Shown here piece after piece: positions 49,553-60,205 of a DNA stretch of 64,000 nucleotides. Position numbers and translations under genes: made by a program. Location: the NCBI GenBank assembly GCA_026392035.1, contig JAPLCX010000064.1, forward strand, positions 1 through 64,000, written 5' to 3'. Within the stretch, counting starts at the first letter, position 1, and each line of letters opens with the position of its first letter. Under the pieces are notes generated by a model that made no database searches, had not been told where the DNA came from, and was given only the letters and a program-made list of their open reading frames with translations. Source of the DNA: Candidatus Auribacterota bacterium. GTDB taxonomy: Bacteria > Auribacterota > Tritonobacteria > UBA1439.

Positions 49553-49626
49553 TGCGAGCGGGCACGATAACTCATGCCCCTACAGGGGCTTCGCTTCTCG
49601 CATCAGCCAACTGATTGAGGCGGCAC

Positions 49627-50394
49627 ATGGTCACAGACAATCGGCACAACCCACTCGCTGCGGGGATCGCGCAGGTTGGAGGGTGGGGAATCTTCAGCGC
49701 GCGGGCAATGCACTGGGCCTTTGGCTCGCCGCCGCTCGTCGCCACTGTGATCGAGGAGGTGTACCGCATCGGGGTTCAATCGCTTTTTATCGTGTGCGCA
49801 GTCGCCGTGTTCATCGGCGGCAATATCGCCCTCCAGGGGTACTACGTCTTCAGGGAGTTCGGGGGGCAGAATCTCGTGGGGATTTTCGTCGCCCTCGCCT
49901 GCGTGCGCGAGATGGGCCCCATCGTCGCGGGATCGATGGTCGCGGCCAAGGCGGGCACCGCCATGGCCGCCTCGATCGCCACCATGCGCGTCAAGGGGCA
50001 GATAGACGCGCTCGAGGTCATGGCGGTCAATCCCTACCGGTACCTCATCGCCCCGCGCGCGATCGCCGCGCTGATCGCCCTCCCGATCCTCGTGGTGTTC
50101 GCTGATTTCTTCACCGTCGCCGCCGCATATTGCGTCTCCGTGTTCCAGCTCGGCGTCAGCTCGGGCACCTTCATGGAAAATGTGGCGAGCTACACAAAGA
50201 TGAGCGACATCTTCTTCGGCATGGTCAAGGGGATGGTGTTCGCGCTCCTGATCTGCCTACTCAGCTGTTATCAGGGGTACTATTCTGAGCCGGGCCCCGA
50301 GGGCGTGGGGAGGGCAACCAACAGGGCGGTGGTGAGCGTGTGCGTCGTATGCATTATTGTGAATTACCTTTTAAGTGAGCTCATGTACGGCTAA
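49627..50394 (+). CDS. MlaE-family ABC permease 2
   Basis: A 255-residue MlaE homologue with five or six hydrophobic segments. The coupling segment is CVREMGPIVAGSMVAAKAGTAMAASIATMRVKGQIDALEVMAVNPYRYLIAPR, clearly homologous to but well diverged from the gene upstream. The C-terminus ends LLSELMYG. The ATG at 49627 follows TGAGG. The gap upstream contains an imperfect inverted repeat (GCGAGCGGGCA...TGCCCC...CTTCTCGC). A heptamer-flanked four-helix-bundle gene separates it from mlaF. Confidence 0.9.
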   Translation: MVTDNRHNPLAAGIAQVGGWGIFSARAMHWAFGSPPLVATVIEEVYRIGVQSLFIVCAVAVFIGGNIALQGYYVFREFGGQNLVGIFVALACVREMGPIVAGSMVAAKAGTAMAASIATMRVKGQIDALEVMAVNPYRYLIAPRAIAALIALPILVVFADFFTVAAAYCVSVFQLGVSSGTFMENVASYTKMSDIFFGMVKGMVFALLICLLSCYQGYYSEPGPEGVGRATNRAVVSVCVVCIIVNYLLSELMYG

Positions 50395-50407: not shown

Positions 50408-50862
50408 GTATCTCGTATTTCGTATCTCGTATTGTGCATCTCGCAAGCACATGCACAAGGGACATGAAGAATGAAAGACAAAATAATCAGTTTTAGGGAT
50501 CTTGAGGTGTGGCAGTTGGGGAAACTGATTGTGGTAGAAATCTATACGACAACAAAAACGTTCCCGCCTGAGGAGATATATTGCCTCACCAACCAGATGC
50601 GGCGGGCGGCAGTCTCCATTCCATCAAACATAGCAGAAGGTTTCAGCAGGTATCACAACAAAGAATACCGCCAGCTGCTTTTCGTAGCCCTCGGATCTTG
50701 TGCTGAACTGGAAACCCAAATTGAGATAGCTTGCGAATTGGGTTACCTCGATACGTCCTCACGCCAAAGCCTGCTCGAAAAGTTGGATCACGAATCGCGA
50801 ATGTTACGGAACTTAATTAAAAAACTCTAAGGACGAGATACAAAATACGATATACGAGATAC
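50408..50862. mobile_element. Heptamer-armed element H1 carrying a four-helix-bundle gene
   Basis: Left arm (50408-50435): GTATCTC, GTATTTC, GTATCTC, GTATTGT. Right arm (50835-50862): GAGATAC, AAAATAC, GATATAC, GAGATAC, the inverse of the left units. The arms flank one gene and fill the whole mlaE2/mlaF gap. No transposase is present. The arms could form a stem of about 28 bp in DNA or mRNA with the gene in the loop. Confidence 0.6.
50471..50830 (+). CDS. Four-helix-bundle protein (S23/IVS/Avd-like) 1
   Basis: A 119-residue protein of the four-helix-bundle family once called S23 ribosomal protein (found in 23S rRNA intervening sequences and related to Avd of diversity-generating retroelements). 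Hallmarks are FRDLEVWQLGKLIVVEIY, EIYCLTNQMRRAAVSIPSNIAEGFSR and LGSCAELETQIEIACELGYL. Members form barrel-like pentamers that bind nucleic acid. It is inserted between two genes of one operon and flanked by inverted GTATCTC heptamers. The ATG at 50471 follows GAAGA. Confidence 0.88.
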   Translation: MKDKIISFRDLEVWQLGKLIVVEIYTTTKTFPPEEIYCLTNQMRRAAVSIPSNIAEGFSRYHNKEYRQLLFVALGSCAELETQIEIACELGYLDTSSRQSLLEKLDHESRMLRNLIKKL

Positions 50863-50867
50863 AGAAC

Positions 50868-51608
50868 GTGATCGAATACATTAAGGTGTACAAATCATTT
50901 GGCGATCTGAAGGTCCTGGAGGACGTCTCGTGCACGATCCCGGACTCAAGGATCACCGTCTTCATCGGCCCGAGCGGCGTGGGCAAGAGCGTGCTCATGA
51001 AGATGCTGGTGGGGCTGGAAAAGCCGGACTCCGGCGCCGTGCGCGTTGATGGCGAGGATGTCACCAGCATGGATGAGCGGAGCCTCTACCGCCTCAGGCG
51101 AAAGATGGGGATGCTCTTCCAGGACGGCGCCCTCCTCGATTCCATGACTGCGGGAGACAATGTCGCGTTCCCCATGAGGCAGCACACGAGCATGACGGAG
51201 ACGGAGATCGCGCGCGCCGTCGCCCAGAAGCTCGCGCTGGTCGGCATGCCGGGGTGCGAGGAGAAATGGCCCTCGGAGCTGAGCGGCGGGATGCGCAAGC
51301 GGGTGGGCCTGGCGAGGGCCATCGCGCTGAACCCCGAGATCGTCCTCTTTGATGAGCCGACGTCCGGCCTGGACCCGCTCATGGCTGACGCAATAGACGA
51401 GCTCATCCTCGACATGCAGCGGAAACTCGGCTGTACATTTGTGGTCATCAGCCACGATATCCCCGGAACATTCAAGATCGCAGACCGGGTCGGTGTCCTC
51501 TATGACACGCGGCTGATCGCATACGGAGAGAAGGAGGAAATCTATCGGTCTCGCGAGCCGCTCCTCGTGAAATTTTTCTCGCGCGACACGGGTTACACAC
51601 GCGCATAA
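50868..51608 (+). CDS. MlaF-family ABC transporter ATP-binding protein
   Basis: A 246-residue ABC ATPase. Walker A is GPSGVGKSVLMKML, the Q loop LFQDGALLDSMT, the signature LSGGMRKRVGLARA, and Walker B IVLFDEPTSGLDP; the H loop is VISHD. LFQDGALFDS-type sequence and the C-terminal FFSRDTG tail are typical of MlaF. It powers the MlaE permeases. The GTG start at 50868 (MIEYIKVYKSFG) directly follows the right heptamer arm (6 bases), so the element supplies the immediate upstream sequence of this gene. Confidence 0.93.
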   Translation: MIEYIKVYKSFGDLKVLEDVSCTIPDSRITVFIGPSGVGKSVLMKMLVGLEKPDSGAVRVDGEDVTSMDERSLYRLRRKMGMLFQDGALLDSMTAGDNVAFPMRQHTSMTETEIARAVAQKLALVGMPGCEEKWPSELSGGMRKRVGLARAIALNPEIVLFDEPTSGLDPLMADAIDELILDMQRKLGCTFVVISHDIPGTFKIADRVGVLYDTRLIAYGEKEEIYRSREPLLVKFFSRDTGYTRA

Positions 51609-58188: not shown

Positions 58189-58662
58189 ATGAAGCACACC
58201 ATCAGCGTGCTCGTGGAAAACAAATTCGGTGTCCTCGCGAGGATCGCCGGCCTGTTCAGCGGACGGGGTTATAATATCGACAGCCTCTCCGTCGCGGAGA
58301 CGACCGATCCGACTGTCTCGCGGATGACGATCGTCTCACGCGGGGACGATCGCGTCATCGAGCAGATTACCAAGCAGCTCAACAAGCTCGTTGACGTGAT
58401 CAAGGTACAGGACTACGCGGGCGAGAATTTCCTGGAGCGCGAACTCGTCCTCGTCAAGGTGCACACCACCGCACAGGCCCGCCCCGAGGTGATGCAGATC
58501 GTTGACGTCTTCCGCGGGAAAATCGTTGACGTCGGTCACTCCTATGTGACGGTGGAGCTCACCGGAACTGAAGACAAGGCCGACGCGCTGCTCGGCCTGC
58601 TCAAACCGTTCGGCATCAGGGAGCTCGTCAGGACGGGCAAGATTGCAATTGCGAGAAAATAA
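58189..58662 (+). CDS. ilvN: Acetolactate synthase small (regulatory) subunit
   Basis: A 157-residue protein. The ACT domain starts [40 protein letters not shown], the site where valine binds for feedback inhibition. The C-terminal domain includes [30 protein letters not shown]. Full length for the short IlvN/IlvH class. The ATG at 58189 follows GGAGA; the longer upstream frame runs through heptamer repeats. Located between ilvB and ilvC, with heptamer elements on both sides. Confidence 0.96.
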
Positions 58663-59119
58663 AAAGTCAAAACGCAAAAGGCAAAACCAAAAGCCAAAAT
58701 TCAAAACAGAGATGAATGACAGGGTTTATGATCTTAAGAAGCGGACATACCTCTATGCGCTCGAAATAATCCGCTTTCTTGAAAGCCTGTCAAAAGATTA
58801 TATTTCGCAGGTTATCGGAAAACAGCTTCTTCGGTCAGCAACATCCGTTGGAGCAAATATTATCGAGGCACAAGCCGCAAGCTCAAGAAAGGATTTTATC
58901 AATTTTTACAATCATGCCCTTAAGTCGGCGAATGAAAGCAAGTTCTGGCGCGGCCTTATCAAGGATTCCGGTAAGGCATCTCCTGATATGATAGCTCCTT
59001 TTCTCAATGAAACGAACGAATTGGCTAATATATTAGCAGCGAGCATATTAACGATGAAGGGCAAGAAGAAGTTTTGACTTTTGAATTGTGGTTTTGCCTT
59101 TTTACTTTTGGCTTTTGAG
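58662..59119. mobile_element. Heptamer-armed element H2 carrying a four-helix-bundle gene
   Basis: Left arm (58662-58707): AAAAGTC, AAAACGC, AAAAGGC, AAAACCA, AAAGCCA, AAATTCA, AAAC. Right arm (59072-59119): TTTTGAC, TTTTGAA, TTGTGGT, TTTGCCT, TTTTACT, TTTGGCT, TTTGAGT. They are inverse to each other over about 48 bp and bracket one gene, whose stop codon is formed inside the right arm. The element fills the ilvN/ilvC gap; ilvC starts 42 bases later. Confidence 0.62.
58712..59077 (+). CDS. Four-helix-bundle protein (S23/IVS/Avd-like) 2
   Basis: A 121-residue protein of the same fold family as the one at 50471 but only distantly similar. YDLKKRTYLYALEIIRFLESL, IGKQLLRSATSVGANIIEAQAASSRKDFINFYNHALKSANES and a last helix NELANILAASILTMKGKKKF match the family pattern (-Q--RSA-SV-ANI-E----). 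The ATG at 58712 follows the left heptamer arm directly, and the TGA stop lies in the right arm, so arms and gene form one unit. It is inserted between ilvN and ilvC. Confidence 0.86.
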   Translation: MNDRVYDLKKRTYLYALEIIRFLESLSKDYISQVIGKQLLRSATSVGANIIEAQAASSRKDFINFYNHALKSANESKFWRGLIKDSGKASPDMIAPFLNETNELANILAASILTMKGKKKF

Positions 59120-59160: not shown

Positions 59161-60159
<999 letters not shown>

Positions 60160-60160
60160 A

Positions 60161-60188
60161 AAATCCCAAATCCCAAACCCCAAATCCC
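60161..60188 (+). repeat. Heptamer tandem array AAATCCC (single arm)
   Basis: Four consecutive units: AAATCCC, AAATCCC, AAACCCC, AAATCCC. It starts 2 bases after the ilvC stop and ends 17 bases before leuA, taking up most of the gap. No inverted partner is seen. Confidence 0.75.
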
Positions 60189-60205
60189 AATAAAGGTATC
60201 GATCT

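Follow-up and report, generated by a model that had tools for sequence, protein, structure and literature searches.

A four-helix-bundle gene between inverted heptamer arms is very likely a small mobile element of bacterial intergenic spacers

Genome comparisons indicate that a small four-helix-bundle (4HB) gene and the inverted short-period repeats on either side of it very likely constitute one mobile element, inherited and moved as a unit between sites, genomes and phyla. This conclusion is inferred from comparison; no transposition was observed and no enzyme was identified. The element lies in the window, by which we mean the whole 64,000-nucleotide stretch analysed here (contig JAPLCX010000064.1, positions 1 to 64,000, forward strand), part of the genome of a Candidatus Auribacterota bacterium (G000; 2.8 Mb, 122 contigs). 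It is about 450 bases long, comprises one small gene and two mirror-image heptamer-repeat ends, and is located between mlaE and mlaF, not inside an rRNA gene. The window features are as follows.

49615..50394, + strand: upstream host gene, mlaE permease (PF02405, 2.7e-72; syntenic in G001-G005)
50408..50443, + strand: left arm of the first element, five 7-nt units of GTATCTC type
50471..50830, + strand: four-helix-bundle (S23/IVP) gene, 119 aa (PF05635, E 4.7e-36; TIGR02436; AlphaFold2 pLDDT 94.6; PDB 2gsc, 2rld and 4dwl)
50833..50862, - strand: right arm, inverted units of GTATCTC type, defined by alignment with the left arm
50868..51608, + strand: downstream host gene, mlaF-type ABC ATPase (PF00005; directly after mlaE in G002, G003 and G005)
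58662..58707, + strand: left arm of the second element, 7-nt units of AAAAGTC type
58712..59077, + strand: second 4HB gene, NxxEA subfamily, in the ilvN-ilvC spacer (PF05635, 6.6e-19)
59071..59116, - strand: right arm of the second element, overlapping the 3' end of the second 4HB gene
60155..60196, + strand: AAATCCC array without a gene, its unit being that of the arms of another 4HB element of G000 (L012, G000:C12)

The left-arm units of the first element read GTATCTC, GTATTTC, GTATCTC, GTATTGT and GCATCTC, and the reverse-complemented right arm reads GTATCTC, GTATATC, GTATTTT and GTATCTC followed by GT. The initial annotation, made from sequence alone, had described an S23/IVS/Avd-like 4HB gene inside inverted heptamer arms between mlaE and mlaF, and this held on the sequence, the PF05635 match and the arm score; its count of four units per arm held for the right arm, which has two additional bases, and fell one short for the left. 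The inverted pairs extend over 29 nt at 86% complementarity and 24 nt at 92%. Their arm alignment score was 19, whereas 4813 random placements with this geometry in the rest of the window gave scores no higher than 12. Only 5 bases separate the right arm from the mlaF start, a GTG at 50868. We found no transposase or recombinase in the window element, confirming what had been claimed for a transposase, and an element of ~430-455 bp has room for the 4HB ORF only.

The gene product matches the families 23S_rRNA_IVP (PF05635) and four helix bundle protein (TIGR02436), and its AlphaFold2 model consists of four helices. The best PDB matches of the model were XCC0516 (2gsc, TM 0.91) and BT_0352 (2rld), with the Avd protein of diversity-generating retroelements (DGR Avd, 4dwl) more distant; the solved homologues 2gsc and 2rld have 5 chains each. 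The protein has no recognised catalytic domain. Across 158 divergent homologues, residues Q42, R45, S49, N53, E56 and E79 are 90-100% conserved, compared with at most 85% for hydrophobic core positions, and five of the six form a stripe on helix 2 with the sixth on helix 3. Because these polar residues outdo the hydrophobic core in conservation, a ligand site or an active site is possible. A bolder reading would make the S23/IVP bundle the recombinase itself, with its own chemistry, the 7/8-nt units its binding sites and the rRNA intervening sequences (IVSs) one corner of a pan-bacterial class; we regard this as unlikely, although it is not excluded.

Orthologous sites without the element were found for both window copies. 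The mlaE-mlaF spacer is empty, at ~4-24 nt, in the relatives G002, G003 and G005, and in G001 and G004 it holds hairpins without a gene, made of two other units. The ilvN-ilvC spacer is also empty in G002, G003 and G005 and is filled in G001 and G004 by a different 4HB subfamily with a different unit, while the site of an element of G001 (L097) is empty in G000, G003, G004 and G005. Copies at unrelated sites are alike only within the element: two in G006 (L133 and L138) are 85.5% identical over 462 nt and their similarity stops at the outer arm ends, and the same confinement was seen among L124, L125 and L128 in G038 and among L135, L136 and L144 in G031, with identities of 82-86% within the G006 and G038 sets. 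Between phyla, where the insertion loci are unrelated, L097 matches an element on a Nostocales plasmid (L257) over its full length (protein 75%, nucleotide 69% over 418 nt) with arms identical in type, CAGAATTCAGGAGTCAG. The similarity between the window element and one from Planctomycetota (L161) spans 339 nt and includes the left arm, and the pairs L045/L162 and L163/L164 link the window phylum or Omnitrophota with Atribacterota. As a discrete unit that is missing from orthologous sites and has copies at unrelated ones, the element satisfies this criterion for a transposable element, and the comparisons show that insertions go into intergenic spacers and are mostly co-directional with the host operon.

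Near-identical plasmids allowed two insertion junctions to be read. Comparison of plasmid C of Trichormus ATCC 29413 with Nostoc linckia NIES-25 (99% identical) revealed a clean 428-bp insertion that turns AAAAAGTAATTAAC into AAAAAGTAAT...TTTGTAATTAAC and repeats GTAAT, a direct repeat readable as 4 or 5 bp. On pNsp_a of Nostoc sp. ATCC 53789, the TTCTA of the empty site flanks the insert on both sides. Direct repeats of 4-5 bp were seen at these two sites only, both from one Nostocales subfamily; at filled/empty plasmid sites 2, 4, 5 and 6, divergence or alteration of the junctions obscured any duplication, and the window copy is not readable. The 4HB genes of Nostocales plasmids have heptamer arms, and the clean empty plasmid sites contain no array before insertion. 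Thus the suggestion in the initial annotation of a minimal mobile element built from short-period repeats was supported by empty sites, dispersed copies, cross-phylum homologues and plasmid pairs, and neither observation that would have refuted it, a gene present at this place in all relatives or arms that are random low-complexity sequence, was made.

Inverted arms are a general property of the gene family. The genome of the window contains nine PF05635 genes, eight of which have inverted arms scoring above all shuffles, among them the second element of the window, which the initial annotation had missed. With 38 relatives included, PF05635 was present in 24 of the 39 genomes, and 69 of 91 testable genes had flanking inverted arms, defined by a score above all 100 dinucleotide shuffles; among these 69, the best period was 7 or 14 at 49 loci and 8 at 11. 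In GTDB contigs we found 80 PF05635 loci from ~20 phyla, with arms at 63 of the 77 testable (period 7/14 in 47, 8 in 14), compared with 4 of 104 control ORFs in the same contigs. Periods of 7, 14 or 8 thus account for 121 of the 132 armed loci. These counts are not independent because the elements are related, and significant arms were absent at 22 of 91 PF05635 genes in G000 and its relatives and 14 of 77 across phyla. One control open frame, in a Chitinophagaceae contig (L173, 4111-4663), had strong inverted flanks with a score of 32.5.

Unit length is nearly always 7 or 8 nt, with a median of 5 units per arm for 7-nt and 4 for 8-nt units, and unit sequence varies between elements, TAGTCAG, TGACAAA, AAATCCC and AAAAGTC being among those of G000. 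By a longest-open-frame rule, the gene is co-directional with both neighbours in 49 cases and against them in 6, a bias of the kind expected of insertions that operons tolerate. We asked whether PF05635 genes without arms are 23S IVSs, and rejected this: Rfam searches of 20 such loci gave no overlap with rRNA, and the only RNAs nearby were tRNA, tmRNA and a group II intron. No match to the element was found in phages.

Some members of the family have unusual neighbours. In five genera, members of one 4HB subfamily (L007, L065, L103, L122, L063) still adjoin the same tRNA genes, although their arms have changed in sequence and kept only their inversion; since this group keeps one place across a class, part of the family may have become settled or domesticated. 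On cyanobacterial plasmids, 4HB elements (L261, L263, L281) occur in CRISPR operons, between cas6 and cas4 of type I-D and between cas10 and cmr3 of type III-B, the latter being absent from the corresponding place in PCC 7002. Such elements could possibly account for the CRISPR-linked 23S_rRNA_IVP genes of an earlier report (PMC10910872), and where S23/IVP genes adjoin CRISPR or other operons, they may have hitchhiked there.

The unit can decay to hairpins without a gene, and solo or hairpin arrays with the same unit are spread through genomes. At other sites of the cyanobacterial plasmids compared above, the place of a full element is taken by a truncated copy (L269) or by a hairpin remnant without a gene (L278). 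Solo arrays and gene-less hairpins are more numerous than gene-bearing units: the AAATCCC pattern has 123 matches in G000 against 15 for the control, the unit of the second window element recurs at 12 further sites and GTATCTC at several, and the unit of L097 has 39 further sites in G001 and none in G004 of the same genus. These dispersed copies were counted by pattern searches only. Internal stops or truncations between the arms mark L005, L069, L107 and L269 as decaying copies. The solo AAATCCC array of the window (60155-60196) lies immediately 3' of one gene and before the start of the next. Three heptamer hairpins without a gene occupy spacers of one ribosomal protein operon (L037, 252-347, 2954-3025 and 4640-4725; G000:C16), and an in-frame heptamer array lies inside a valyl-tRNA-synthetase-like open frame, apparently adding 20-25 residues (L039, 950-1100; G000:C86:8493-8535).

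Unit sequence drifts fast while the left and right arms remain alike. In 22 of 26 pairs, the two arms of an element resembled each other more than they resembled the same-side arm of the homologue (p 8e-5), suggesting that the arms are kept symmetric as the unit changes, but this homogenisation test is partly circular because left-right alignment defined the arms. The left arm has more G than C in 108 elements compared with 17 C-rich ones, with a loose unit consensus of ~AG[TG]. Protein subfamilies differ in arm polarity (p 0.001, without correction for relatedness), and between-genome arm similarity, in the sense orientation only, is 0.138 at 50-70% protein identity versus a baseline of ~0.02. 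That arm type tracks the protein fits recognition of the unit by the 4HB protein, although shared ancestry would by itself produce some of the pattern.

From these properties we propose a mechanism in which a 4HB oligomer would bind the repeated arm units on one strand, with about one unit per subunit. This stoichiometry is suggested, not shown, by a numerical analogy, namely the five chains of the solved homologues and the five units per arm. The protein would then pair the two element ends and either recruit a host or trans-acting nuclease or transposase, or act itself, and insertion would leave a 4-5-bp direct repeat. We hold the binding and recruitment steps, taken together, only tentatively and would not favour them over their negation. 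Slippage and template switching within the hairpin would lengthen, shorten and homogenise the arms, and gene-less hairpins may be mobilised in trans in a MITE-like manner.

An RNA-level element following classical IVS logic is one alternative to a DNA element of this kind: the arms would pair as an RNA stem, RNase III would excise the insert from the operon transcript and so render it harmless, the 4HB protein would bind RNA, and spread would proceed via RNA or cDNA. Consistent with this, RNase III cuts a 28-bp stem in the Coxiella IVS RNA (PMC4990558), the two window arms pair when the transcript is folded, insertions favour the operon sense, and the structural homologue Avd partners a reverse transcriptase. 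However, the fold z-score of the window element is only -1.7, and G.U mismatches in the sense strand of 132 arm pairs (66 and 54) were no commoner than A.C mismatches (69 and 77, respectively), which means that pairing within the sense transcript is not the evident constraint, with the caveat that this comparison had no positive control. There is also no reverse transcriptase gene in G000 (0 PF00078 matches) or in 12 of 19 genomes with at least two 4HB genes. We consider the RNA-level explanation unlikely. A resident reverse transcriptase as the mover was rejected on the same absences and on the lack of correlation with 4HB count, and the element does not need one.

It is also conceivable that the arrays are an independent family resembling short tandemly repeated repetitive (STRR) sequences, generated by polymerase slippage and hairpin copying, and that 4HB genes have simply inserted within or between these arrays. 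The excess of solo arrays and gene-less hairpins over gene-bearing units speaks for this, as do heptamer arrays known without a stated 4HB link in cyanobacteria, Xanthomonas and Beggiatoaceae. Against it, the same protein and arm unit recur together, sense-specifically, across genomes and phyla, paralogous copies break at the arms, and the array-free empty sites on plasmids largely refute it, leaving it very unlikely. Equally improbable in our view is mobilisation in trans by Y1 (RAYT-like) single-strand transposases with the 4HB protein as an end-binding helper. The number of Y1_Tnp genes does track the number of 4HB genes over 39 genomes (rho 0.75, 0.69 after size), and hairpin-ended elements located in spacers look like REP/REPIN systems, but Y1 genes in the same genomes have inverted ends of their own (GGGGTCAAACC... 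type) and not heptamer arms, ruling out shared ends, and 2 of the 19 genomes with at least two 4HB genes give no Y1 match. Duplications of 4-5 bp are not an expected outcome of Y1 transposition. The Y1 genes at L237-L251, with precise inverted ends starting GGGGTCA or GGGGACA, form a separate small-element family.

The preferred reading, a mobile arm-gene-arm unit, joins three literatures that were unconnected in the work we found: S23p rRNA IVSs, heptanucleotide STRR arrays of bacterial intergenic regions and a very common protein without known function, the "four helix bundle protein". If it is true, one of the smallest mobile elements to carry a gene is built around an orphan protein that genome annotations often list, many of the heptamer repeats taken to be "regulatory" are ends and remnants of 4HB elements, and S23p function becomes testable.

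Among known systems, STRR or heptameric arrays have been described in heterocystous cyanobacteria, in Xanthomonas (GGGAATC, with ~70 inverted pairs in Xcc) and Nostoc (PMC4692102) and in Beggiatoaceae (TAACTGA; PMC4679880). They share with the present arms the 7-nt tandem units, the intergenic location, often within operons, and in Xanthomonas the inverted pairing, but that literature links them to no S23 gene or element, whereas here the arrays are the ends of 4HB elements. RAYT/REP and REPIN systems (PMC3116915) likewise have one small gene between inverted ends, insertion into spacers and many gene-less hairpins; they differ in their catalytic HUH/Y1 transposase and fixed-tag REP ends, as the 4HB element has PF05635 only and variable tandem 7/8-mers. 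MITEs are comparable as gene-less derivatives with short inverted repeats spread in trans, although the parent here carries the 4HB gene and no parent transposase is known. PF05635 has been noted as Avd-like (PMC10053308), and DGR Avd (PDB 4dwl, 8ub7) has the same fold (TM ~0.76-0.78) but only 8% identity; without a reverse transcriptase, G000 offers no retroelement for the 4HB protein to serve.

The closest precedent is the rRNA IVS. That of Coxiella burnetii 23S rRNA, a selfish element of 428 nt, combines an S23p ORF with 28-bp terminal inverted repeats and, immediately before the ORF, has three or four tandem heptameric repeats (GACAGAT) whose number varies between strains; IVS mobility has been proposed before (PMC4990558); rRNA insertions of CPR bacteria also include 23S_rRNA_IVP ORFs (PMC11270868). 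IVSs and the present elements thus share PF05635 as sole gene, terminal inverted repeats, nearly equal size and, in Coxiella, heptamers in the 5' arm. In contrast, IVSs are known only inside rRNA genes and are discussed in terms of RNase III excision, while the present elements occupy protein-gene spacers and plasmids, have period-7/8 repeats in both arms, dispersed gene-less derivatives and strain-level empty sites, and lack an RNA-stem signature. The initial annotation knew of no described class of this kind, which held only in part given this precedent. Since the IVS precedent exists, and since we found no description of 4HB elements with heptamer arms outside rRNA in the open-access literature searched (most subscription journals and all preprints were not covered), we interpret the element as a very widespread variant of the S23/IVS type rather than as something categorically new.
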